In this document: positions 472 to 14,541 of the stretch, piece by piece
Layout: the number at the start of each line of letters is the position of its first letter
Numbering within the stretch: position 1 is the first letter of the stretch
NCBI RefSeq assembly: GCF_000376865.1
Contig: NZ_AQXQ01000006.1
Span: 1-64,000 of the forward strand
Direction of reading: 5' to 3'
DNA: 64,000 nt
Origin: Thioalkalivibrio sp. ALJ7
GTDB lineage: Bacteria > Pseudomonadota > Gammaproteobacteria > Ectothiorhodospirales > Ectothiorhodospiraceae
The notes under the pieces: generated by a model
The model's input: the letters and a program-made list of their open reading frames with translations, nothing else
Told to the model about the DNA's origin: nothing
The model's database searches: none
Made by a program: the position numbers and the translations under genes

Positions 472-861
472 ATGGGACGAGTGACACGGTGGGCGCTGGT
501 GGCTGCGGTCGGGATGGCCACGATGTTGGCGGGGGCCGCCAAGGCCGACGAGGTTTCCGAGCTGCGACTCGAGAACCGCTCCAGTGAGGCACTGCAGGGG
601 ACCATTACGGTCCTGCACGGATCGGCGGATTATGAACAACGGCAGTTCAGGCTTGCCCCCGGCGCCAGCGAGGAATTCGTCTGGGACGGCTGGTATGGGA
701 ACTACGCGTATCAACTGGACGGGGGCGACCTGAATTCGGTTCGGATGTCGTTGCCAGGATATGCCTCCTATTACTCCAGTGAAGTCGAGATCACCTGGTA
801 TGACGATCAGGATGAACTGAGCCACCGGGTCGAGTGCTCCAAGTCTTGCCGGTGGCCGTGA
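472..861 (+). CDS. Small secreted protein of unknown function (129 aa)
   Basis: I do not recognise the family. The protein starts with a typical Sec signal peptide (residues 1-25, positive n-region, hydrophobic core, ending GAAKA before DEVSEL). The mature part of about 104 residues is acidic and rich in aromatic residues (WDGWYGNYAY), and ends with a CSKSC motif close to the C terminus, which could form a disulfide. It is probably periplasmic or exported. It lies upstream of, and in the same direction as, a MacAB/TolC-like operon and has a plausible AGAGGTG ribosome site. A gap of about 150 bases separates it from the next gene. A role as cargo or accessory of that exporter is inference from position only. 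Confidence 0.7.
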   Translation: MGRVTRWALVAAVGMATMLAGAAKADEVSELRLENRSSEALQGTITVLHGSADYEQRQFRLAPGASEEFVWDGWYGNYAYQLDGGDLNSVRMSLPGYASYYSSEVEITWYDDQDELSHRVECSKSCRWP

Positions 862-1009: not shown

Positions 1010-1291
1010 ATGAAAAAGCGACTGGCTACGATGATGCTGCTCGGTGGGGTGATGCTCGGCGCGACCGCGAACGCTTCTACGATTTGTGTGTGCGTGGGTA
1101 TAGGAAGTACCGGAAGTGGCTGTGGTAGTGGCGCAACCGGTGCGAACTTCGGGCAGTATTTTGGAAATGTGAGCAACTCGGATCTGGACTCGTACCTGCG
1201 CGAGCATCATGCCGAACGGCTCAGCAGTGGTGCCAGCAGTAGTGAGTATTCGTCCCAAACCGGTTGGCTGTGCACTCGGGAACGACGTTAG
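1010..1291 (+). CDS. Small Gly/Ser/Cys-rich secreted peptide (93 aa)
   Basis: This is an unrecognised small protein with a clear Sec signal peptide (MKKRLATMMLLGGVMLG..., cleavage probably after ATANA, residue 22). The mature peptide of about 71 residues has four cysteines: a CVC pair at its N terminus, one in a Gly/Ser-rich stretch (GSGCGSGATG) and one four residues before a basic RERR tail (WLCTRERR). An AGGAG sequence lies 6 bases upstream of the ATG. It is directly upstream of the TolC-type gene, about 24 bases away, suggesting co-transcription with the exporter genes. It could be a cargo peptide: MacAB-TolC systems are known to export Sec-delivered periplasmic peptides such as the cysteine-rich E. 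coli heat-stable enterotoxin II. That role here is inference. Confidence 0.65.
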   Translation: MKKRLATMMLLGGVMLGATANASTICVCVGIGSTGSGCGSGATGANFGQYFGNVSNSDLDSYLREHHAERLSSGASSSEYSSQTGWLCTRERR

Positions 1292-1315: not shown

Positions 1316-2878
1316 GTGTTAGGTGACACGCGAGGCTGGCCAGCATGCTGGGTCACGGGTGTGCTGGCCAGCTTGGCGTTTGCAGTGTCCGCATGGGTTG
1401 TGATGCCCACGGCCGCTGCTTCTGCAGGTAGTTTCAATGTCCACGAATACGAGCCTGCCCCACTGTCGGGCAGCGAGTTGGAGTTGGGGCTGGCCGAGGC
1501 CATTGCCCTGGCCCTGCGGCGGAATACCCAGCTGCAAAGCGCGTATCTGGATCGCGTGGTGGATCAGTTGAATCTGGCGGTGGCCGAGGCGCAATTTCGG
1601 CCGCAGGGTACGATCGTATTGGGCGCCCAGCAGAACCGCGCGCCCGGGGACGATGCCGATACTCAGCGTTCGAGCACCCTCTCGCCCTCCCTGGATACCG
1701 AACTTCCGACCGGGGGGCGGATCGGTTTCAGCTGGAATCTTGACCAGGACCATGGCCTGGATGAGCCCGCCATCCAAACCTCGCGCAGCTCTCAACTTTC
1801 GCTGGACCTGAATCAGCCGTTACTGCGTGGCGGCGGCCTGGCGGTGGGTCGGGCTCCGCTGGAGATTGCCCGCTTGCAGGAAACCGCGAGTGCCCTGGGG
1901 CTGGAAGAGACGGTGGTCGGGACCATCGATAGTGTGATTGCGGCGTATCGCTCGCTGTTGCAGGGCCAGCAGCGCCTGGAGATTGCGATAGCATCCCTGG
2001 AGCGCACCGTTGAACAGCTGGAACGCAATCGTGCGCTGGTGGAGCGAGGGCGTATGGCAGCCAACGAACTGGTGCAGACCGAGTCGCGCCTGGCCAATCA
2101 GCGCTTCAGTGTTAGCCAGGCCGAAGACGCCGTGGATCAGTCGCGGCTGGAGCTCCTGCGACTGCTCAACCTGGGGCGTGACACGCGCCTTCGTCTGCGT
2201 GACACGGTCGAGCTGGAGGCGCTTGAGAGCCTTCGCGTTCGATCTCCCTCGCTGGAAGCGGCCACATCGATTGCGCGTGACAACCGTCCGGATTATTTGC
2301 GCCTGCGGATCGCGCGCGAGATCGAATCGATCGGGCAGATGCTGGCCGAGAATGAACACCTCTGGAGACTCGATCTGAATGCCTCGCTGGATGCCGGGGC
2401 GACCGGGCGAAGCGCTCGGCAGGCCACCGGTTCGACGCTTGACGAGCGTCCGGGATATGCGTTGGGGCTGGAGTTGGAGATCCCGATCCTGGATCCGGAG
2501 CGGCCGGTTCGGCTGCTTGAGTCCCGCATTCGCCTGCAGCAATCGGAAATCCAGTTCTCCGAACGAGAGGTCGAGCTGGAGCTGGAAGTGGAGCGTTCCC
2601 TGAATGATCTGAACAGTCGCTGGCAACAGTTGGGCTTGGCGCAGCGTTCGCTGGAATTGGCGCGCGAAAGCCTGGAGATCGAGCGTGAGCGGCTGGCCGT
2701 GGGACGGACGACGTCGTTCCAGGTCAATGCAACCGAACAAAACCTCCAGCAGGCCGAGCAGAGCTTGTTGGACGCTGTGATTGCGTATCTGAATGCGCAG
2801 ACTGCGCTGGACCGGGCGCTGGGGACCACGCTGGATAGCTGGGGGCTGTCGCTCCCTGACGCAGGAGTGATGCCATGA
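1316..2878 (+). CDS. TolC-family outer-membrane efflux protein (first copy)
   Basis: The 520-residue protein belongs to the outer membrane efflux protein family, which forms trimeric channels across the outer membrane and periplasm. A hydrophobic N-terminal segment (about residues 16-36) is a likely signal sequence. Two long alpha-helical repeats follow (about 55-250 and 280-500), with typical heptad-like stretches and a conserved QPLLRGGGL segment near residue 168. The GTG at 1316 is used; an internal GTG at 1361 is an alternative and neither has a strong ribosome site. The stop overlaps the next start (ATGA at 2875-2878), so it is translationally coupled to the adaptor gene. It is clearly paralogous to the TolC-type protein at 9154-10725. 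Confidence 0.9.
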   Translation: MLGDTRGWPACWVTGVLASLAFAVSAWVVMPTAAASAGSFNVHEYEPAPLSGSELELGLAEAIALALRRNTQLQSAYLDRVVDQLNLAVAEAQFRPQGTIVLGAQQNRAPGDDADTQRSSTLSPSLDTELPTGGRIGFSWNLDQDHGLDEPAIQTSRSSQLSLDLNQPLLRGGGLAVGRAPLEIARLQETASALGLEETVVGTIDSVIAAYRSLLQGQQRLEIAIASLERTVEQLERNRALVERGRMAANELVQTESRLANQRFSVSQAEDAVDQSRLELLRLLNLGRDTRLRLRDTVELEALESLRVRSPSLEAATSIARDNRPDYLRLRIAREIESIGQMLAENEHLWRLDLNASLDAGATGRSARQATGSTLDERPGYALGLELEIPILDPERPVRLLESRIRLQQSEIQFSEREVELELEVERSLNDLNSRWQQLGLAQRSLELARESLEIERERLAVGRTTSFQVNATEQNLQQAEQSLLDAVIAYLNAQTALDRALGTTLDSWGLSLPDAGVMP

Positions 2879-4641
2879 GCGACAGTCCAGTTATGTTGAG
2901 TCAGCAGATCCTGGATTCGATGGCGGATGGGGTGCTGGTCGTCGACGCCTCTGGCGCGATCACAACCTTGAATCCCGCCGGGGCGGCGATTCTCGGGTTA
3001 CGGGCCGATGAGGCAGAAGGACGCAGCCTGGCCGAGGTGTTTATCGGAGAAGAGGGCTACGCGGCCTTCGTCGATGCTTTGTTCGAGGCGGTCTATTCCG
3101 GTGTGATGCAGCCCGACCAGATGGTGTCCATCAGCGTGGGTGGGCACGTACGTTCGCTGAAATTGACCACCTCCTATCTGGCGCCCCGGCAAGCCGGGGG
3201 CGAGCGCGCCGTGCTCGCGGTGTTTACGGATGTGACCGACCTGGAGCAGGCACGTCAGGCCGAGCAGAGCCTTTCCGATGAGCTGCGCGGCAAACACAAG
3301 GAATTGCAGGACGCCTTCCTGGAAATCGAGGCGAACAGCGAGGCCTTGCAGCAGGCGTACCGCCGTTCCGGCCGCATGCGGCTGATGATGACGGCCGCCG
3401 TTGTGGCCGTGTTTGCGGGTGCTGGGTACTGGGCCATTCCGAACGCCGCGTTGCCCGAATTTGGTGCCAGCGATGCCCCGGTCGTCGACGCCACTCAGCC
3501 CGGAGCGTTCGAGGTGCAATCGCGCGCGGTGGAAAGCACCACGAGCTTTTCCGGGCGGTTTCGTCCGGGCGATGTCATTACGCTGGTCAGTCCTTTCGAG
3601 TCCACCGTGGTGGCCCGTCACGTTGAGTATGGCGAGCGGGTGGACGAGGGTGATCTTCTGCTGGAACTCGATTCGACCGAAATCGATATCCGCTATCGGC
3701 GTGCACGCAGCGACCTGGCGGATGCCGAGTCGGAGCTTGAGGACCTGGAGGACTGGGAGCAGGGCCGCGAGATGGCCAGTTCACGCCGCAGTCTGAGGCA
3801 GGCCGAACGCAATTTGAGTAACGATCAGCGCGAACTGGATGATGTCGAGCATCTATTCGAGCGTGGCATCGTTCCCGAGCGCGAGTTGCGGGCGGCCCGG
3901 GAGCGAGTGGAAGAATCCCGAGTGCGGGTCGAGGCCGCGCGAGAAGACCTTGCGGAGACCTCGCGTCAGGGCGGTGAACGGGCGATTGCGCGGGCGCGAG
4001 TCGAGGTGGAGAACGCGCGCGCGGAGTATGAGCAGGTACAACGCCAACGTGATGGGGCCCGCGTGTATGCCCCGGTCGATGGCGTCGTTCTGGCGCCCCT
4101 TGGCGAGGACCGGGATGACGGCGAGCGGGTGGAGGCTGGGGGGCGTGTGTCCAGTGGTGCCGCTCTGCTGGCGGTGGGCGACCTGTCTTCCCTGGAGATC
4201 GAAGGCACCGTTGATGAGCTGGATATCCATGACGTCCAGGCGGGCCAGTCGGCCCGGGTGAACGTGGTGCGAGGCGGGGGTGACCCGATGCCGGCCCGGG
4301 TGTCCTATGTGTCTTCGCAAGCGCAGGAGGGGAGCGGACGAGGTCTGCCATCGTTCCGCCTGGTCGTGCGTATTGATGACCTCGACGACCAGGACCTGGA
4401 ACGGATTCGGGTGGGGATGTCCGCCTCCGTGGATGTGATCACGCAGCAGGATTCGGATGCGGTGGTCGTGCCCCATGCCTATCTGGGCGGGAGCGGGTCG
4501 GAGCGTTGGGTCCTGCGGCAGACATCCAACGGCTCCGAGCGCATCGCGGTGGAACTCGGCCGGTCCCGATACGATGGGGTCCAGGTGCGAAGCGGCGTGG
4601 AACCCGGAGACCGGCTGTTGCCACCCGGGGGTGAAGTTTGA
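2875..4641 (+). CDS. PAS domain-HlyD/MacA fusion periplasmic adaptor (588 aa)
   Basis: Architecture: a cytoplasmic PAS domain (about residues 8-125, with ILDSMADGVLVVD and LNPAGAAILGL), a short coiled coil (122-165), one membrane helix (168-188), then a MacA/HlyD-type adaptor. The adaptor has a split lipoyl/barrel-sandwich domain (about 235-270 and 405-440), a long periplasmic coiled-coil hairpin (about 280-400) and a beta-barrel part to the C terminus. The adaptor links the inner-membrane MacB-type permease to TolC. The PAS domain places a possible ligand or redox sensor on the cytoplasmic side, which ordinary MacA proteins lack. It overlaps the preceding gene by 4 bases and the next ATG by 1 base, so a single coupled operon is likely. 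What the PAS domain senses cannot be read from sequence. Confidence 0.9.
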   Translation: MSDSPVMLSQQILDSMADGVLVVDASGAITTLNPAGAAILGLRADEAEGRSLAEVFIGEEGYAAFVDALFEAVYSGVMQPDQMVSISVGGHVRSLKLTTSYLAPRQAGGERAVLAVFTDVTDLEQARQAEQSLSDELRGKHKELQDAFLEIEANSEALQQAYRRSGRMRLMMTAAVVAVFAGAGYWAIPNAALPEFGASDAPVVDATQPGAFEVQSRAVESTTSFSGRFRPGDVITLVSPFESTVVARHVEYGERVDEGDLLLELDSTEIDIRYRRARSDLADAESELEDLEDWEQGREMASSRRSLRQAERNLSNDQRELDDVEHLFERGIVPERELRAARERVEESRVRVEAAREDLAETSRQGGERAIARARVEVENARAEYEQVQRQRDGARVYAPVDGVVLAPLGEDRDDGERVEAGGRVSSGAALLAVGDLSSLEIEGTVDELDIHDVQAGQSARVNVVRGGGDPMPARVSYVSSQAQEGSGRGLPSFRLVVRIDDLDDQDLERIRVGMSASVDVITQQDSDAVVVPHAYLGGSGSERWVLRQTSNGSERIAVELGRSRYDGVQVRSGVEPGDRLLPPGGEV

Positions 4642-5339
4642 TGTCCGCGGCGCAACCGCTGGTTAGCCTGCAAGACGTCCATCGCTCCTATCGCGTCGGA
4701 CCCACCGATGTGCACGTCCTGCGCGGAGTTCAACTCGAGATCCACCGGGGTGAACTGGCCTCGCTGATGGGGGCTTCCGGCTCCGGCAAGTCCACGCTGA
4801 TGAACATCATCGGGATGCTTGAACGCCCGTCTTCGGGTGATTTCTTTTTCGAGGGTCGGGACGTGCTGCAACTCGCGCCCGATGCCCTGGCGCATTACCG
4901 CAATCAGCAGATCGGTTTCGTATTCCAGACCTTTCACTTGCTGCCGCGACTGACGGCCCTGGATAACGTGGGGCTGCCGCTGCTGTATCAGGACGTGAGC
5001 AAGCGGGAGATGCGTCGCCGTGCGCGCGAGATTCTGGGTCGAGTCGGCATGGGTGATCGCGTTGATCATCGACCCAACGAGCTCTCCGGCGGCCAGCGCC
5101 AGCGGGTCGCGATTGCGCGTGCACTGGTGGGGAACCCTTCCGTGGTGTTGGCGGATGAGCCCACCGGTGCGCTGGATTCGAGTGTGGGCCGCGAGATCAT
5201 GGATTTGTTCCACGAGCTGAACGGCGAAGGCGTGACCGTGGTGATCATCACCCACGACCCGGCCATCGCACGGGAGTGTCCCCGGCAACTGGTCATCCGG
5301 GACGGTGTGGTCGCCGGCCCGGAGCAGGTGCCGGCATGA
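4641..5339 (+). CDS. MacB/LolD-type ABC transporter ATPase
   Basis: The 232-residue protein is a stand-alone nucleotide-binding domain of the MacB/LolD/FtsE group. It has a Walker A motif GASGSGKST (residues 44-52), a Q-loop region, an LSGGQRQR signature and a Walker B ADEPTGALDS followed by the H-loop ITHD. It should drive the permease encoded next (5336-6532), together forming a two-gene version of MacB, in which ATPase and permease are normally fused. The ATG at 4641 is preferred over the in-frame TTG at 4638. It shares one base with the adaptor stop, and its own stop overlaps the permease start by 4 bases. The substrate is unknown. Confidence 0.93.
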   Translation: MSAAQPLVSLQDVHRSYRVGPTDVHVLRGVQLEIHRGELASLMGASGSGKSTLMNIIGMLERPSSGDFFFEGRDVLQLAPDALAHYRNQQIGFVFQTFHLLPRLTALDNVGLPLLYQDVSKREMRRRAREILGRVGMGDRVDHRPNELSGGQRQRVAIARALVGNPSVVLADEPTGALDSSVGREIMDLFHELNGEGVTVVIITHDPAIARECPRQLVIRDGVVAGPEQVPA

Positions 5340-6532
5340 GGCTGGGGATGCTCCTGGGCGAGGCGAGCCGCAATATTGTGGCGACCAAGCAGCGCTCCCT
5401 GCTGGCGCTACTGGGGATCGTGATCGGCACGGCCTCGGTTATCGCGATGCTGAATGTCGGGTCCATCATGCACAACGCGGTGCTGGAGCAGTTTCGCGCG
5501 ATGGGGACCAATGTCATCAATATCCGACAGCGCTACGCCACGGATGAGGACGACCCCGCGCGTAACCAGCTGGACCTTGGACTGGCTCGGGCATTGGGGC
5601 CGGCCCTGCCGCAATTGATTCAAGTCGCGCCATTTGATTCTGCGAGTGCGCAACTGCGAGCGGGCGCGGAGACCCAGAATGTCCGGCTGACGGGGGCGAC
5701 CGAGGCGTTACAGGGGCTCTTGCGGGTGCGCCTGGCCGCCGGGCGCTGGGTCTCCGAGCTGGATGGGGTGGAGCTCCAGGGTGTGGTCGGTTCCGAGGTG
5801 GCATCGAACTATGCCGCGCAAACCAACCAGCCGCTGGAAGTGGGTGACCGAGTGGGGCTGGACGGCTACACCATGACGGTGGCCGGAATCCTGGAGCCGT
5901 ATCCACGAGGCGGCGGGGTGAGTCCGATCTCCCCGAACCGGACGATCTTTCTGCCGATCAAAGCCTTGCAGCGTTTCGATGCCGATAACCAGCTGGAAGG
6001 CATCCTGGCGCGTGTGCATCCACAGGCCGACCATCAGGAACTGGCGCGAACCATCGAGACCTGGGTGGAGGAGCGCGCCCCGGGGTTGCCCGTCGAGGTG
6101 AATAGTGCCGAACAGTTGCTGGCCAACATGGAGCAGCAAAGCCGCATGTTCACGATCATGCTGGGCGCGATCGGCAGTATTGCGCTCATCGTGGGGGGCG
6201 TAGGGATCATGAACATCATGCTGGTATCGGTCACCGAGCGACGCAAGGAGATCGGCATTCGGCTTGCCATCGGGGCCCGCAATGCCGACATCCGTCGCCA
6301 GTTCCTGGTCGAGGCGGTCATGCTGTGTCTGCTGGGCGGTGTCATTGGGGCCGCGTTGGGAACCGGGGTGGCCATCGCCTTTGCCCATTTCACTGGTAAC
6401 CCGTTCGTGGCGGCACCCATGGCGGTACTGCTGGGCGTTTCCGTCTCCACGCTGACGGGGATTGCCTTCGGGTATTACCCCGCCCTGCAGGCCTCGCGGC
6501 TGGATCCGATCATCGCACTGCGTAGCGAGTAG
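5336..6532 (+). CDS. MacB-type ABC transporter permease
   Basis: This 398-residue permease has the MacB/FtsX layout: an N-terminal membrane helix (about residues 22-42, LLALLGIVIGTASVIAML), a large periplasmic domain (about 45-280), and three C-terminal helices with the FtsX core and the conserved VTERRKEIGIRLAIGA coupling segment. It pairs with the upstream ATPase, PAS-adaptor and TolC to make a tripartite ATP-driven exporter for periplasmic substrates. The ATG at 5336 overlaps the ATPase stop (ATGA). Its last 23 bases overlap the 3' end of the convergent lnt-like gene. MacB-type pumps export macrolides, lipopeptides, haem precursors or peptides; nothing in the sequence decides which. Confidence 0.92.
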   Translation: MRLGMLLGEASRNIVATKQRSLLALLGIVIGTASVIAMLNVGSIMHNAVLEQFRAMGTNVINIRQRYATDEDDPARNQLDLGLARALGPALPQLIQVAPFDSASAQLRAGAETQNVRLTGATEALQGLLRVRLAAGRWVSELDGVELQGVVGSEVASNYAAQTNQPLEVGDRVGLDGYTMTVAGILEPYPRGGGVSPISPNRTIFLPIKALQRFDADNQLEGILARVHPQADHQELARTIETWVEERAPGLPVEVNSAEQLLANMEQQSRMFTIMLGAIGSIALIVGGVGIMNIMLVSVTERRKEIGIRLAIGARNADIRRQFLVEAVMLCLLGGVIGAALGTGVAIAFAHFTGNPFVAAPMAVLLGVSVSTLTGIAFGYYPALQASRLDPIIALRSE

Positions 6533-8087
6533 AGCGTCCCCGCCGGCGCCAGCCACGATGGAGGCTGGCCAGCAGGACCAGCACGGCCAGGCCGTGAATG
6601 AAGCGGTCGCCATGGCGCTGGTAGAAAGGGCGCTCCGCCACGGTGTGGACCACGATGCTTTGAGTCGTGCTCCGCCACTGTGGCGTCTCGCTACCTGGCA
6701 CCACTCGGCCCGTCGCGTCGAAGACAGCCCCGCCCCCGGTGTTGTGCAGCATGACCAATGGACTGCGGTTCTCCAGGCTGCGTGCGCGCGCGATGGCCCG
6801 GTGCGCATCCGCGGCGCGCGGCGAACCGAACCAGGCGTGATTGCTGATGTTCACGATGATCCCCGCTTGCCCCGACAGGTTCTCGCGCACGAGGTTGGCG
6901 AACAGACTCTCGAAACAGATCGTCGGGGCTAGGTGCACCCCGTCGGGCCCGGTCAGGGACGGTTCCGGGTGTCCCGGGCTGAAGCGTGAGGCATGTGGCA
7001 GGCGCTCGCGTAGCCAGGGCAGTTGCGCTTCGAACGGCAGGTATTCGCCGAATGGCACGAGCTTGCGTTTGCGGTAGGTCCCGGACAGGCCGGCCCCAGG
7101 CTCGAACAGTAGGGCGACGTTGTGAGTGTCATGGGCCGGGTCATCCCGGTGTTCGGTCCCGTTGACCAGTATGGGTACCCCGATCTCGTCGGCCAGGGCG
7201 GCAAGGGCGCGATGCCCCCAGGATTGCGGAGCCGCCTGAAGCGTCATGGCCGCCTCGGGCCAGATCACCAGATCCAGATCCGGGTCGGTCTTGTGCAACT
7301 TGCGGGTCTGCGCAATGGCGGTGTCGATGTCGTTGTTTCGATCGGCCATCGGCATGTCGTCGCGCCGCACATGTACCGGGATATTGGGCTGTACCAGGCC
7401 CAACCGGGTGCTGTGTTCCGGAGCGGCCCGTTCCAGTGCATCCAGGCGCAGGCTCCCGTAGGCCAGCACGGTCACCACCAGCAAGCCGAGCAGTACGGGC
7501 GCGACTGGGGTGAGCGTGTGGCGACTCACCGCGATCAGCATGCCGGCGGCGAGAAAGCCGATCGCGGCCGAGAAAAAGAGCAGCAGGGGCATGCCGCCCA
7601 GATCGACGACTTGTGCCAGCAGGGGGTGGGCGAGCAGGGCGTAGGCAAAATGTCCGGGAACGACCTGCGGCGAGAAGGACAGGACCACCGTCAGCAGCCC
7701 CGCTGCGAGCAGGGCCTCAGCGGGACGTTCCAGGCGCAGTGCAAGTGCGGCGACGGCACCGGAGAACAGCGCGTAGGGTGCTGCGTGCAGGAGCGCCAGC
7801 CCCAGCACCATCAGGCTGCCAAGGATCCATGGGAAGCCGAGCCAGGCTTCGGTGCCGGATACGACCCATCCGAGCGATGGCAGCCAGTAGCCCAGGCCCG
7901 CCAGAAGGCCGGTCGTAGCGGATGCGCCGATGGTCAGGCCCTGCAACGCGAGCCCCAGAAGGGCAATGGATATCAGGACGAAGGCCCCGGGCAGGGGGCC
8001 CTCCGGAAAACTCAGGTGAAAGAGAACCGCGGAACCTGCCAGCAGGCCCGCACGCGCGAGTGCGGACAGGGCGGACCGCTGGATCAC
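6510..8087 (-). CDS. lnt: Apolipoprotein N-acyltransferase-like protein (Lnt family)
   Basis: The 525-residue protein has an N-terminal multi-helix membrane domain (about residues 10-215) followed by a periplasmic nitrilase-fold domain. The catalytic triad expected for Lnt is present: Glu278 in IWPEAA, Lys340 in YRKRKLVPFGEY and Cys391 in TICFES. Lnt adds the third acyl chain to the N-terminal cysteine of mature lipoproteins in the inner membrane. The usual neighbours (corC/ybeX, ybeY) are absent. Instead it ends a leftward set with a second TolC and two secreted proteins, so it may be a specialised second copy. None of the neighbouring secreted proteins has an obvious lipobox. Residue spacing between the triad members is close to that of E. 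coli Lnt. Confidence 0.85.
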   Translation of the reverse strand: MIQRSALSALARAGLLAGSAVLFHLSFPEGPLPGAFVLISIALLGLALQGLTIGASATTGLLAGLGYWLPSLGWVVSGTEAWLGFPWILGSLMVLGLALLHAAPYALFSGAVAALALRLERPAEALLAAGLLTVVLSFSPQVVPGHFAYALLAHPLLAQVVDLGGMPLLLFFSAAIGFLAAGMLIAVSRHTLTPVAPVLLGLLVVTVLAYGSLRLDALERAAPEHSTRLGLVQPNIPVHVRRDDMPMADRNNDIDTAIAQTRKLHKTDPDLDLVIWPEAAMTLQAAPQSWGHRALAALADEIGVPILVNGTEHRDDPAHDTHNVALLFEPGAGLSGTYRKRKLVPFGEYLPFEAQLPWLRERLPHASRFSPGHPEPSLTGPDGVHLAPTICFESLFANLVRENLSGQAGIIVNISNHAWFGSPRAADAHRAIARARSLENRSPLVMLHNTGGGAVFDATGRVVPGSETPQWRSTTQSIVVHTVAERPFYQRHGDRFIHGLAVLVLLASLHRGWRRRGRSTRYAVR

Positions 8088-8127
8088 GGGTGCCGTAACG
8101 GTGGGTGTGGCGGAGCTGCTTGGCGGA

Positions 8128-8535
8128 TTAGCGTATGCCGAGGCGGTTCGGACAGCCGCCGCCGCTGTAGTTGATCTCGGTGATCTCGACCTGCCCGGAG
8201 ACTACGTGAACCTCCGAACGGTGGCTGAAATCCAGCCGCTTGCTCTCGCCTTCGCGCCACTGTTCCCGGTCGCGGGCTGTGAGTGTGAGACTTTCCATGT
8301 GCGAGTCTGGGTCCATCACCATTGCATATCCCTGCAGGGTGCTGTCGGCAAGTCCGCGGAATCCGATGCACCCGGTGGCGAAGCTTTGCGTGGCGAGCTG
8401 CACGCTGTCGCCGCTGCGCAGGACGTCCCCTTCATTGGCGGAGCTGCCACCCCCTGAGGCGACCGCAGAGGATAGGGTCACCGAGGCGAACGAAAGCACG
8501 ATCGCAGTGGTGAACAGGCGAGAAACTGGATTCAT
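8128..8535 (-). CDS. Small secreted protein, paralog of the upstream gene (135 aa)
   Basis: The family is not recognised. It has an N-terminal signal peptide (residues 1-27, ending SSAVAS), then a mature domain of about 108 residues. This aligns with the protein at 8585-8992 through blocks such as GDVLR(S/A)GD, TGC, DREQWREGE(S/T)KR, SGQVEITEIN and SGGGCPNRLG. Two cysteines are conserved between the pair (the TGC and GGGCP positions), suggesting one disulfide in the periplasm. No lipobox is visible. It lies 49 bases after its paralog and 40 bases before the lnt-like gene, all leftward, which suggests one transcript. Confidence 0.72.
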   Translation of the reverse strand: MNPVSRLFTTAIVLSFASVTLSSAVASGGGSSANEGDVLRSGDSVQLATQSFATGCIGFRGLADSTLQGYAMVMDPDSHMESLTLTARDREQWREGESKRLDFSHRSEVHVVSGQVEITEINYSGGGCPNRLGIR

Positions 8536-8584
8536 TGCGGATACCGGGTTGGGGTGGGGGTGCAGGTTTGCCCTGCCGTGGCCA

Positions 8585-8992
8585 TCAGCCGACGCGCAGT
8601 CCGAGGCGATCGGGGCAGCCTCCGCCGCTACGGTTGATCTCCGTTATCTCCACGGAGCCAGAGAGCACCATGATTGCCGAGTTACGGAAGTCGAACCGTT
8701 TCGTCTCGCCTTCGCGCCAGCGCTCCCGATCGCGGTCCTTGACCGTGGTCGTGAGGCCTCCACGGTAGGACTCGATGATCTGATATCCCTGCACCTCACT
8801 ATCGCTCAGGCCCCGCAGTTCCATGCAGCCGGTGGAGCCGATCAAGGCCTTTACGCGGGTCTGGTCCCCCGCGCGCAGCACGTCACCTACGTTGGCGCTG
8901 CTGGTGTTCGAGGCCAGGCTGGATCCCGAGGTAGCCACCAAGGCAAATGTCATGCTCAGCAATAAGGCGCGTCGTATCGGTAGAGGGATCAT
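8585..8992 (-). CDS. Small secreted protein, tandem paralog (135 aa)
   Basis: Unknown family. It has a signal peptide (about residues 1-28, ending GSSLAS) and a mature domain homologous to the next gene (8128-8535), sharing GDVLRAGD, STGCMELRGLSDSEVQGY, DRERWREGETKRFDF and GSVEITEIN...GGGCPDRLGLR. The same two cysteines are retained. The near-identical length and conserved C terminus indicate tandem duplication. It sits between the second TolC gene (about 160 bases upstream) and its paralog. Secreted partners or cargo of the local exporter is a reasonable guess, but only from context. Confidence 0.72.
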   Translation of the reverse strand: MIPLPIRRALLLSMTFALVATSGSSLASNTSSANVGDVLRAGDQTRVKALIGSTGCMELRGLSDSEVQGYQIIESYRGGLTTTVKDRDRERWREGETKRFDFRNSAIMVLSGSVEITEINRSGGGCPDRLGLRVG

Positions 8993-9153: not shown

Positions 9154-10725
9154 TCAATCGATGTATGCGGATGTGTCTGTTGTCCTGGATGGGATCGCCA
9201 GATCCCAGCGTTCGAGCACGATGCCCATCGCCCGATCCAGTTCGGTCTGGGCGTTCTGGTAGTTGATGGCGGCATCCAGCAACGCCTGCTCCGCCTCCCG
9301 GAGCTCGCGCTCCACGCTTTCGACCTCGAACCCCGAGGAACGCCCGACTGCGAGCTTTTCCTGCTCGATCGCCACGGCCTGTTGTGCCAGATCCAGCGCT
9401 TGTTCGGCCAGATGGAGTTGATCCCGTCGGCTCTCCAGCGCCCCAAGGGCACGTTCGACCTCGATGCGGATGGATGTTCGGAGTTCCTGGGTCCGCAGGC
9501 GCGCCTGACGCTGCTCCACCCGTGCCGCGCCAAGGCGTTGTTGGCGCGTGTGCCGGTCTCCCCAGGGGATGCTGAGGCGCAGGCCCAGGGAGTGGCCTGG
9601 AGACTCTTCGAAGCCGCGCTCGATGGCTCGAGTGGTGGACGGGCTATCGCCCCGCAGCTCGACCGAGGCGGACACATCCAGTTGCCAACGGTTGGCGTCC
9701 TCGGCCAGCGTTCGATCGAGAGCGGTCAGTCGTTGCGTGACCAGCGATTGGCGAAATTCCGGACTCCGATCCAGTGCCGTATCCATCGCGCTTTCGAGGG
9801 GGGGTGTATCGGCGAGGAGTCCGTCAATGTCGTGGACATCAATCGCGTCCTGCGGCTCGAGCCTCACCCCGGGTTCCAGCCCAATCAGTCGAATCAGATC
9901 GAGCTCGGCCTGATCCCGGCGCTCCTGGGTCTGCGCCTGCTGTAGCTCTTGACGCGCAAGGCTCTCGCGCGCCGGGGCCAGATCCGCCGCTGCCAGCCGA
10001 CCGCGTTCCACCAGCTCCGTCCGGTTTTCCAGCTCTTGGCGACTTCTTTCCAGGGCGAGCTCGGCGAGTTCGACCCGCTGGTTTTCCAGGATCAGGTTGC
10101 GGTAGGCCTGAATTACCTGGGCGAGGGTGCTGATGACCTGGGACTCCAGGGCCAGTACATTCTGTTCCTCGTTCAGGTGCGCACGTTCCACTGGCGCCCG
10201 GCCAATCTCCAGACCGCCACCGCGCAATAGCGGCTGGGTGATGTCCAGCGTGACTGCGGAGGCGCTGTCTGGCGGGGTGTTGGGCGCGTCGGATTCGAGT
10301 ACCCGTTCAATCCGCCAGTTCAGGCCCGCCTGCGCGCCGGTGGGAAGCGCGAGGCTGGCACTTGGATTGACACTGGCGGTGCGGGTCCGCACGCCGTTCG
10401 CGCCCGCTGTACGCTGCTCGCGAGCTTGAAGCGTCACGGCGCTCCGGGGATGAAAGGCTTGGTTGGCCAGATCCAGATTGGCCCGGTCGACCACACGGCC
10501 CAGGTACGCGCCGCGCAGTGACGGATTGCGGGCAAGCGCGACCTGCAAGGTCTCGCGCAACGTCAGGCGCAGGGGCGCGCTCCCGGCTCGCATGCGCGAT
10601 TCAATTGCGGAGTCGGCCGCCGCGACTGCGCGGTCCGGGTCGCCAGGGTTCGCCGGGTCAGCCGCGGCGGTCGTCGCCAGGATCAGGAGGCAGCCGAAGA
10701 GGGCAGGATGTTTGAACAAACGCAT
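9154..10725 (-). CDS. TolC-family outer-membrane efflux protein (second copy)
   Basis: With the start at ATG 10725 the protein is 523 residues and opens with a signal peptide (MRLFKHPALFGCLLILATTAAAD). An in-frame start at 10803 would add 26 residues that destroy this signal, so 10725 is preferred although no ribosome site is obvious. The two helical repeats of the family are present. The segments NPSLRGAYLGRVVDRANL and QPLLRGGGLEIGRAPVE closely match those in the TolC protein at 1316-2878, so the two are paralogs from one duplication. No adaptor or permease accompanies this copy. It could form mixed trimers with, or replace, the first TolC in the local pump. Confidence 0.9.
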   Translation of the reverse strand: MRLFKHPALFGCLLILATTAAADPANPGDPDRAVAAADSAIESRMRAGSAPLRLTLRETLQVALARNPSLRGAYLGRVVDRANLDLANQAFHPRSAVTLQAREQRTAGANGVRTRTASVNPSASLALPTGAQAGLNWRIERVLESDAPNTPPDSASAVTLDITQPLLRGGGLEIGRAPVERAHLNEEQNVLALESQVISTLAQVIQAYRNLILENQRVELAELALERSRQELENRTELVERGRLAAADLAPARESLARQELQQAQTQERRDQAELDLIRLIGLEPGVRLEPQDAIDVHDIDGLLADTPPLESAMDTALDRSPEFRQSLVTQRLTALDRTLAEDANRWQLDVSASVELRGDSPSTTRAIERGFEESPGHSLGLRLSIPWGDRHTRQQRLGAARVEQRQARLRTQELRTSIRIEVERALGALESRRDQLHLAEQALDLAQQAVAIEQEKLAVGRSSGFEVESVERELREAEQALLDAAINYQNAQTELDRAMGIVLERWDLAIPSRTTDTSAYID

Positions 10726-11037
10726 GGCTGGCGGGAGGGGAGCGCGATCTCGATCAGCGGGTGAGTTTCCGGCGACCGCCCGCAAACCTGCGCGCCATCC
10801 CATGCAGGCAGTATCCCAAGCCGACCCTTATGCAGTAAAGCTGCGGCTCGACCGGCCGCAGGGGTGCCGGCATTGACCATCATCGGGAATGGATCCCGAT
10901 CCTCGACCCGACCGCAGCGCGAAGAGCGCACGTCGGTACCTGTCGGCTTGAAGCGCAAGCGAGGGCGGTGTCATGGAAATCGCGAAGGCGGTCTCGTACT
11001 CTGGCACGCCATTCGTCCATACCCTTCTGGAGACATC
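10726..11037. other. Divergent intergenic region
   Basis: About 310 bases between the leftward second TolC gene and the rightward gene at 11038. It should hold promoters for both, but I see no strong sigma-70 pair and no repeat. An ORF upstream of 11038 is open but its composition does not look coding. Confidence 0.4.
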
Positions 11038-11466
11038 GTGGCCAACATCCTGAACCCGTACGCCGACGATCAGCCGGAACCGAAACACATCGTGCTGCGT
11101 GCCCGTAGCGGCCAGGCGGTCTCCGCCGAATTTACCCTGCAGGATCGGCGAGGGCGCCAGAGCGCGGCGGAATATCTGTTCCATCTCTATTCCACCATCA
11201 AGCAGAAGCTGGACGAGCCGGTCCTGGACACCGCCGCGCCATCGCCGGACGACCAGGCCGCCATGCAGCGATTGATCCTGTACTCCGCCGGCGCCCACGA
11301 CACCATGTTCGGCACCTTCAATGGTTCCAATACCTCCTCGGAGATGCCGGAGGAGGAGCGCAACGAGTTCGTGGAAATCTTCCTGCTGGCCTGCGCCACG
11401 GTCATCGAGGGCCAGCGGATCACTGTCGACCTCCAGCGAGGCTTCATCACCGCCGAGGCGGCCTGA
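11038..11466 (+). CDS. Hypothetical protein (142 aa)
   Basis: Not recognised. The frame is open from 10864, but a CTGGAG ribosome site (11028-11033) precedes the GTG at 11038 by 4 bases, and the residues before it (SRSSTRPQREERTSV...) look non-coding, so 11038 is chosen. The product has no signal peptide or membrane helix. It is acidic, with a compact alpha/beta look: a NILNPYADDQPEP start, an RSGQAVSAEF strand and a helix-rich remainder with EMPEEERNEFVEIFLLA. Probably cytoplasmic. It stands alone, flanked by the divergent TolC gene and a direct repeat just after its stop. Confidence 0.6.
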   Translation: MANILNPYADDQPEPKHIVLRARSGQAVSAEFTLQDRRGRQSAAEYLFHLYSTIKQKLDEPVLDTAAPSPDDQAAMQRLILYSAGAHDTMFGTFNGSNTSSEMPEEERNEFVEIFLLACATVIEGQRITVDLQRGFITAEAA

Positions 11467-11518
11467 GCATAAGCCGGGGTCAGGCTTTTCCTTTTGACCC
11501 ACCTACACCAGAGAGGCA

Positions 11519-12345: not shown

Positions 12346-12449
12346 CTTGCGTGGTTCGGCCACTCTGGAAAACCGCTTCCCATGTGCTTCCCAGCCCCTG
12401 TGGGCGCTGTCTTTGGTGCTGCCGAAAAGCGTGTGACTAACGGTTTATG

Positions 12450-12526
<77 letters not shown>

Positions 12527-12549
12527 GTATTCGGGGAGGGTACAAACGA

Positions 12550-12592
12550 CTGCGGCGCCATTCTACCCGGAAAGGCAGGGATGGCGCCGCAG
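12550..12592 (-). terminator. Hairpin after rpoD
   Basis: The perfect 12-base inverted repeat CTGCGGCGCCAT / ATGGCGCCGCAG has a 19-base loop and lies between rpoD and the tRNA gene. No good T-tract follows on the minus strand (TCGTTTGTACC), so it may be a weak terminator or a processing hairpin. Confidence 0.5.
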
Positions 12593-12630
12593 CGGCAGGG
12601 CAGGTTCCGGCTGTTTGGCCGGGACGCCGG

Positions 12631-14541
<1,911 letters not shown>

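Follow-up and report, generated by a model that had tools for sequence, protein, structure and literature searches.

What does a PAS sensor domain do at the cytoplasmic end of a periplasmic adaptor? Tripartite pumps and exporters resembling type 1 systems are usually studied as transcriptionally regulated. The question is raised by a gene of Thioalkalivibrio sp. ALJ7, found in a stretch of 64,000 nucleotides (contig NZ_AQXQ01000006.1, positions 1 to 64,000; hereafter the window), whose product joins a PAS domain, an amphipathic coil and one membrane helix to an adaptor part of the HlyD/MacA type. The gene belongs to a module of two convergent operons whose distribution is patchy. The answer we favour, tentatively and at a probability a little under one half (about 0.47), is that the protein serves as the adaptor in a tripartite exporter like MacAB/Aat, in which the cytoplasmic PAS domain would regulate the pump through the coil and the single helix, and that small secreted proteins encoded nearby are the cargo. 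As far as sequence alone can tell, such a pump may be switchable directly rather than via gene control.

Architecture and integrity of the fused adaptor

The adaptor gene (Table 1) is a single unbroken open reading frame with a Shine-Dalgarno-like AGGAG 5' of its ATG. A sequence-only reading of the window had described its product as a PAS domain fused through a coiled coil and one membrane helix to a MacA/HlyD adaptor, and Pfam and NCBIfam profiles, hydropathy and a heptad test agree with this layout. Judged against the curated cut-offs of Pfam, the PAS model PF00989 scores 46.3 bits (cut-off 22.6), PAS_4 41.6 bits (E 1.6e-10; cut-off 23.1) and PAS_8 30.8 bits (E 2.5e-7; cut-off 21.8), while PAS_9 stays at 24.3 bits, under its cut-off of 27. 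The NCBIfam model sensory_box matches the protein with an E-value of 1.2e-13. The region in which the PAS fold had been proposed, residues 8-125, is accordingly accepted by PAS profiles. In the adaptor part, HlyD_3 matches residues 397-512 (E 3.8e-12, 47.3 bits, cut-off 22.2) and HlyD_D23 residues 252-485 (E 1.8e-9, 37.6 bits, cut-off 30), and RND_mfp (TIGR01730) reaches 114.5 bits against a cut-off of 94.9. Coverage by HlyD-type profiles begins at about residue 230, and the long hairpin spans approximately residues 267-385 (bounds set by eye).

The two parts are separated by the coil and the membrane helix. The best hydrophobic 19-mer of the protein, residues 170-188, has a mean of 1.82, and the next one outside it 1.21. 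The segments flanking the helix carry net charges of +3 (residues 155-169, towards PAS) and -3 (residues 190-210, towards the adaptor). Because these charges obey the positive-inside rule, the PAS domain is predicted to be cytoplasmic and the adaptor part periplasmic, the orientation that had been proposed. Residues 122-168 fit a heptad pattern with 71% hydrophobic residues at positions a and d, a fit equalled by 27 of 10,000 shuffles, and a weak AlphaFold2 model draws one continuous helix over residues 120-183, with a block predicted local confidence (pLDDT) of 71-79 at residues 131-160.

The identical fusion occurs in Thioalkalivibrio sp. AKL19 (genome G011, locus L011; loci L009 and L011 are one strain) at 97% identity and in a second Thioalkalivibrio lineage (genome G025, locus L013) at 69%, with the same 4-bp overlap between TolC and adaptor genes and the same gene order. 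A sequencing or assembly error merging a PAS gene with an adaptor gene, which the sequence-only reading had named as a possible undoing, retains a negligible probability and is refuted because a 69%-identical copy stands in the same operon of another lineage; both copies are single open frames with synonymous changes throughout. An internal start at M168, M171 or M172, which would give a short-anchored adaptor, was also rejected: G025 reads RLRLAAT there, and no Shine-Dalgarno sequence is seen before M168.

Selection was estimated from the codons of the window's genome (G000; 2.71 Mb in 12 contigs) and of G025, a comparison in which synonymous divergence (dS) is near saturation and the ratios are rough. 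For the PAS domain (residues 9-122; 69% identical), the nonsynonymous divergence (dN) is 0.25 and dS about 1.6, giving a dN/dS of about 0.16; the ratio is 0.18 in the coil and 0.13 in the adaptor part. The PAS domain is thus held by purifying selection nearly as tight as that on the adaptor. Behind the helix, the 20-residue linker has 40% identity to that of G025, with dS saturated.

The module and its distribution

The forward-strand operon (1316-6532) has the order TolC1, PAS-adaptor, ATPase and permease, with overlapping genes. Facing it on the reverse strand are a second TolC gene, two related genes for small secreted proteins and a second copy of Lnt, Lnt2. The second TolC, the second Lnt and the small secreted proteins did not figure in the sequence-only reading, and they hint at export of protein rather than of drugs. 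The ATPase scores 265 bits with the MacB model and 241 bits with the LolD model, each under its model's cut-off. Lnt2 is regarded as an extra copy because a better-scoring, canonical Lnt (305 bits) is present elsewhere in the genome (G000:C7); its catalytic E, K, E and C align with those of the canonical enzyme. The two TolC proteins are 38-39% identical.

Table 1. Features of the adaptor gene and of the module around it (window coordinates).
Feature	Coordinates	Strand	Basis
PAS-coil-transmembrane-HlyD/MacA-type adaptor, 588 residues	2875..4641	+	Open reading frame; Pfam/NCBIfam; homologues L011 97%, L013 69%
PAS domain, residues 10-119	2902..3231	+	PF00989 E 4.9e-12; residues 9-122 69% identical to G025
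Amphipathic coil, residues 123-165	3241..3369	+	Heptad test; weak AlphaFold2 model
Single transmembrane helix, residues ~168-188, predicted N-terminus inside	3376..3438	+	Hydropathy and flanking charges
Predicted periplasmic adaptor part, residues 211-586	3505..4632	+	HlyD_D23, HlyD_3, RND_mfp; adaptor-part profile
TolC-type outer membrane channel 1	1316..2878	+	OEP PF02321 E 1.2e-34; ATGA overlap with adaptor gene
MacB/LolD-type ATPase	4641..5339	+	ABC_tran E 2.1e-35; ATG at 4641 shares one base with adaptor stop codon
MacB-type permease	5336..6532	+	MacB_PCD E 4e-30, FtsX E 1e-20; ATG at 5336
Second apolipoprotein N-acyltransferase paralogue (Lnt2)	6510..8087	-	TIGR00546 ~214-215 bits, cut-off 132.9
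Small secreted protein, possible cargo, two Cys	8128..8535	-	Signal peptide by eye; 40 bp from Lnt2
Small secreted paralogue	8585..8992	-	49% identical to 8128-8535 protein
TolC-type channel 2	9154..10803	-	OEP E 1.1e-37; true start may lie further in
Small secreted protein (by eye) upstream of pump operon	472..861	+	40% identical homologue, same place in G025
93-residue Cys/Gly/Ser-rich secreted peptide (by eye), before TolC1	1010..1291	+	Present in L011 (87%)

Neither the 472-861 protein nor the 1010-1291 peptide has a Pfam match, and the peptide was not found in L013. A scan of positions 850-1500 for promoters and terminators found none. Upstream of the module, the window edge cuts an integrase/transposase gene (rve_3, E 1.2e-19), whose end occupies positions 1-267.

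Searches with the whole adaptor protein matched three of 58 relatives (E 1e-30) and three of 47 genomes of the order (E 1e-15), two sets that overlap. Wider scans, in which three candidates per genome were scored, matched 25 of 369 genomes of the class and 20 of 398 of the phylum, with only the window's own match full-length; G011 and G025 are not among these matches, and a rare carrier could escape. A search of genome contigs returned two relatives, one being the AKL19 copy and the other a C-terminal match from a Clostridiales metagenome-assembled genome; it missed the G025 copy, so it was not exhaustive. Nine plasmid records matched the PAS-adaptor, all over less than 80% of the query, and the 123 stretches of viral contigs that matched a pattern encode no relative.

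All genes of the block except the 1010-1291 peptide recur in L013 at 40-80% identity. Three of the 58 relatives, the same three each time, carry the PAS-adaptor, the permease (at least 75%), Lnt2 (at least 76%) and the secreted family, and the close homologues of Lnt2 follow the exporter there; two of the three carry near-copies, leaving two lineages. At lower identity the components reach further: the permease query (1e-40) finds 6 further genomes (31-38% identity) and the Lnt2 query (1e-30) 11 further genomes (32-35%). A further Lnt match, L132 (G026:C12:24105-25574), has an in-frame TGA inside the matched stretch.

On the right flank, the window and G025 share 89% (10964-11467) and 94% (12449-13615) DNA identity, as against 72.5% over the block itself (1445-8900), and nothing in the 18 kb of G025 compared matches the window left of 1445. 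The block thus diverges faster than its right flank, by faster change or by exchange. A first impression by eye, that of a mobile module in unlike surroundings, was dropped because the right flank matches G025 at 89-94%.

In AKL19, the stretch left of the module (L011:65-2879) encodes a Cache-HAMP-SpoIIE phosphatase, a STAS protein and a HATPase_c_2 protein, a set resembling a partner switch. PAS domains often bind proteins, and the domain could dock a cytoplasmic partner (a kinase, cyclase, phosphatase or Sec component) that positions the pump or regulates it. The position of this set would suit such a role, as would that of a gene for a GAF-GAF-GGDEF protein (L056:7930-9855), which directly follows a GAF-adaptor operon in another genome (G571, described below). 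However, no signalling gene was recognised inside the block common to the three genomes, and the AKL19 set is not in the compared 18 kb of G025, whose matches to the window begin at 1445. Docking is therefore held to be improbable.

Sensor-fused adaptors and control of the pump

A profile of the adaptor part matches 174 of 398 genomes at 1e-20, and ten members stand apart as a subfamily (E at most 7.5e-148; the next, 5.5e-43). Eight of them have a short N-terminus, one is the PAS protein of the window, and one, a protein of 636 residues (L056, genome G571), has a GAF domain (PF01590, E 3.2e-12) at residues 20-163, ahead of the coil and helix, in an operon of the same order, TolC, GAF-adaptor, ATPase and permease. 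The window's Lnt2 and secreted proteins have no match at 1e-5 in 12 kb of L056. Among the sensor-free members, the five scanned with Pfam contain neither PAS nor GAF, and the other three (L089, L090, L092) have no N-terminal excess; all nine open reading frames outside the subfamily with an N-terminal excess of more than 60 residues were scanned as well, and none has PAS or GAF. The contention of the sequence-only reading that an ordinary MacA has only a short N-terminal anchor fits those eight of ten members, although typical adaptors of ATP-binding cassette (ABC) and major facilitator superfamily pumps are given sizable cytoplasmic domains in the part covered of a review (PMC8277102).

The GAF-adaptor was found in one of 48 genomes of its class, and in the 11 other genomes matching at 1e-20 the match covers the GAF part only. 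A tree built from 19 adaptor parts places one supported branch (97/96) between the PAS proteins and the GAF protein, which falls beside sensor-free adaptors with weaker support (83/69). The GAF protein has a long branch, the PAS proteins are unusual in composition, and these groups were not listed by the built-in group test. Because the supported branch separates them, PAS and GAF were likely, though not certainly, gained independently. The matches to the GAF-adaptor in 15 plasmid records all cover less than 80% of the query. On one Nostoc plasmid (NZ_CP040275.1, 277143-277568) the feature at the GAF match is annotated as an ATP-binding cassette protein, which may mark a further sensor-fused ABC exporter. 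Two sensor-free relatives of the operon also have neighbours of note. One adjoins a secreted protein of 91 residues (L063:9353-9628) with an LCI fold domain (E 2.5e-9), presumably like an antimicrobial peptide, and the other two LuxR-type autoinducer-binding regulators and a secreted protein of 144 residues (L059:264-3277).

MacA is reported to control the ATPase of MacB, its membrane-proximal domain being responsible, and HlyD deprived of its N-terminal cytoplasmic helix to neither recruit TolC nor activate HlyB (both in passages of PMC4446572). A PAS domain joined to the adaptor N-terminus would be well placed to act on the ATPase/TolC step, and it likely tunes pump assembly or ATPase activity. 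In the proposed sequence of events, a cytoplasmic ligand or partner would act on the PAS domain, whose response the coil and membrane helix would relay to the periplasmic adaptor; the adaptor would then set TolC assembly or the ATPase rate of the ATPase/permease pair. The sequence-only reading had proposed direct post-translational control of the pump; we infer it from the reported hold of adaptors over the transporter ATPase, the conservation of the PAS domain and the GAF domain at the corresponding position in another lineage. The pump would take the small secreted proteins, delivered by Sec and perhaps acylated by Lnt2 before export, from the periplasm or membrane and expel them through TolC.

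Several observations, on the sensor side and on the cargo side, tell against the regulated protein exporter. AlphaFold2 modelled residues 1-190 with a mean pLDDT of only 49.5, from an input of two near-identical sequences; because the PAS model is poor, the fold assignment comes from the profiles. The transmembrane helix, through which a signal would pass, is under looser constraint (dN/dS 0.51 over 25 codons). The GAF case consists of one contig from one 76%-complete genome, on a long branch. A LOV-type, cysteinyl-flavin PAS domain and one with a conserved His-bound haem are both unlikely, because the domain has no Cys and no Trp and its sole His, H91, corresponds to Glu in G025. Some PAS domains act simply as dimerisers, and a purely structural PAS dimer is the main rival: PAS and coil would pair the adaptor subunits and nucleate a trimer of dimers without sensing any signal. 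The lack of a conserved cofactor-type residue suits this alternative, as do the coil running straight into the membrane helix and the eight of ten subfamily members without room for a sensor domain. Yet a plain coil would suffice for that task, the PAS domain is conserved almost as tightly as the adaptor, and a GAF domain in the equivalent position on another branch points to a need for sensor domains as such. On balance the structural explanation is doubtful, but it carries more weight than the other alternatives.

On the cargo side, the link between pump and secreted proteins consists of gene neighbourhood. Because the module sits at one shared site, plain inheritance of that locus would partly explain the joint occurrence of its genes. 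The secreted family was found in one of 203 genomes of the class, the window's own, and in no other lineage. Its signal peptides (by eye) have A-S in six of six cases, followed by Gly in three, Ser in two and Asn in one. The locus may instead encode a pump for drugs, lipids or other compounds, with Lnt2 and the small secreted proteins as unrelated neighbours and only the PAS fusion unusual. The MacB family exports many substrates (PMC8277102, in the part covered), and both the neighbourhood-based assignment and the flank shared by G000 and G025 leave room for such a pump; against it, the exporter, Lnt2 and secreted genes occur together, and at this identity never apart, in the same three of 58 relatives. 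This efflux alternative is considered unlikely, somewhat more so than the structural one.

Comparison with known systems

The regulated protein exporter can be set beside four known or newly found arrangements. With MacA-MacB-TolC it shares an HlyD/MacA-like adaptor with an N-terminal membrane helix, a MacB-like ATPase, a MacB_PCD/FtsX permease and TolC. It differs in having an additional cytoplasmic PAS domain and coil and in its ATPase and permease, which are separate genes (4641-5339 and 5336-6532) and not the single polypeptide of MacB; the adaptor scores 21.6 bits with the MacA equivalog model PRK11578, below the cut-off of 342. The MacA label given by the sequence-only reading thus denotes a likeness only.

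The gene set also resembles that of the Aat/CexPABC lipoprotein secretion system (AatPABCD; PMC7943197, PMC7478709, both as covered in part). This system likewise combines TolC, an adaptor, a separate LolD/MacB-type ATPase, a permease, a dedicated Lnt homologue and small secreted proteins, and the first four of these are found in one operon in the window. Aat exports Sec-delivered proteins acylated by its Lnt homologue, AatD, which acylates an N-terminal Gly, and Lnt2 keeps the catalytic residues E, K, E and C named for Lnt and AatD in the same source (PMC7943197, in part). By contrast, the module described here has a PAS domain on the adaptor, the order A-B-C-P with Lnt2 convergent, two TolC genes and a putative cargo in which Gly does not invariably follow the A-S. 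The three Gly cases read GGGSS twice and GVSSA once, and the 8128-8535 protein could start with GGGSS, comparable to the GGGNS of CexE; cleavage before the Ser of A-S would yield an N-terminal Ser in six of six.

Fold searches with the AlphaFold2 model of the 8128-8535 protein, an all-beta core (block pLDDT 75-92 over residues 31-130, except 71-90 at 59-60), gave no clear match: the best Foldseek E-value is 1.2e-3, and the best VIA hit, a carbohydrate-esterase domain, has Z 7.3 (root-mean-square deviation 2.8, 83 aligned). Dispersin is not among the 50 matches listed in either search, which excludes nothing, and a search of the PDB by sequence with the secreted family returned one match, at E 1.5. 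A search of plasmids with Lnt2 gave 278 records, many of them from Rhodobacterales-type genera and Rhodococcus; the 25 matches listed are 27-31% identical and annotated as Lnt, and are uninformative on kinship with AatD. The module thus resembles Aat and may work like it, but is not classed as Aat, because Gly is not invariant after A-S and the fold search gave no clear match.

Aat has been reported from pathogens of the Enterobacterales (PMC7943197, in which the order follows from the species listed, and PMC7478709; both in part). Export of the Aat kind, with its dedicated acyltransferase, may to judge by the module extend beyond enteric pathogens, here to soda-lake sulfur oxidisers. A bolder version, sensor-gated lipoprotein secretion outside the Enterobacterales, would have the PAS domain on the adaptor (elsewhere GAF) directly open or close an Aat-like pump that displays Lnt-acylated small proteins, post-translationally and with no transcription factor; we regard it as unlikely in this full form.

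The GAF-adaptor operon of G571 shares with the window the operon order and the position of the sensor before coil and helix, and differs in having GAF for PAS and in standing apart in the tree. The remaining precedent is the GAF-HlyD family of SecA2/Peptidase_M50 loci, in print since 2015 (PMC4452313, in part). There, too, a sensor is fused to HlyD/biotin_lipoyl domains, and its authors suggest a regulatory and sensory role; the sensor is GAF and not PAS, the partners are others, and the authors identified no ABC transporter in the loci. For the PAS-adaptor fusion itself, no description was found in literature on PAS with adaptors or on Thioalkalivibrio, among the matches listed (titles and the beginnings of abstracts, subscription papers and preprints lying outside the coverage), and the term "PAS domain" is absent from the first 300,000 characters of one adaptor review (PMC8277102) and from the part covered of another (PMC4446572). 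An adaptor with a built-in cytoplasmic sensor, which has apparently evolved more than once with different sensors, offers a natural construct for studying the adaptor as a control point. In this comparison, GAF-HlyD is already known, and what is new is PAS as the sensor fused to the adaptor of an ABC exporter.

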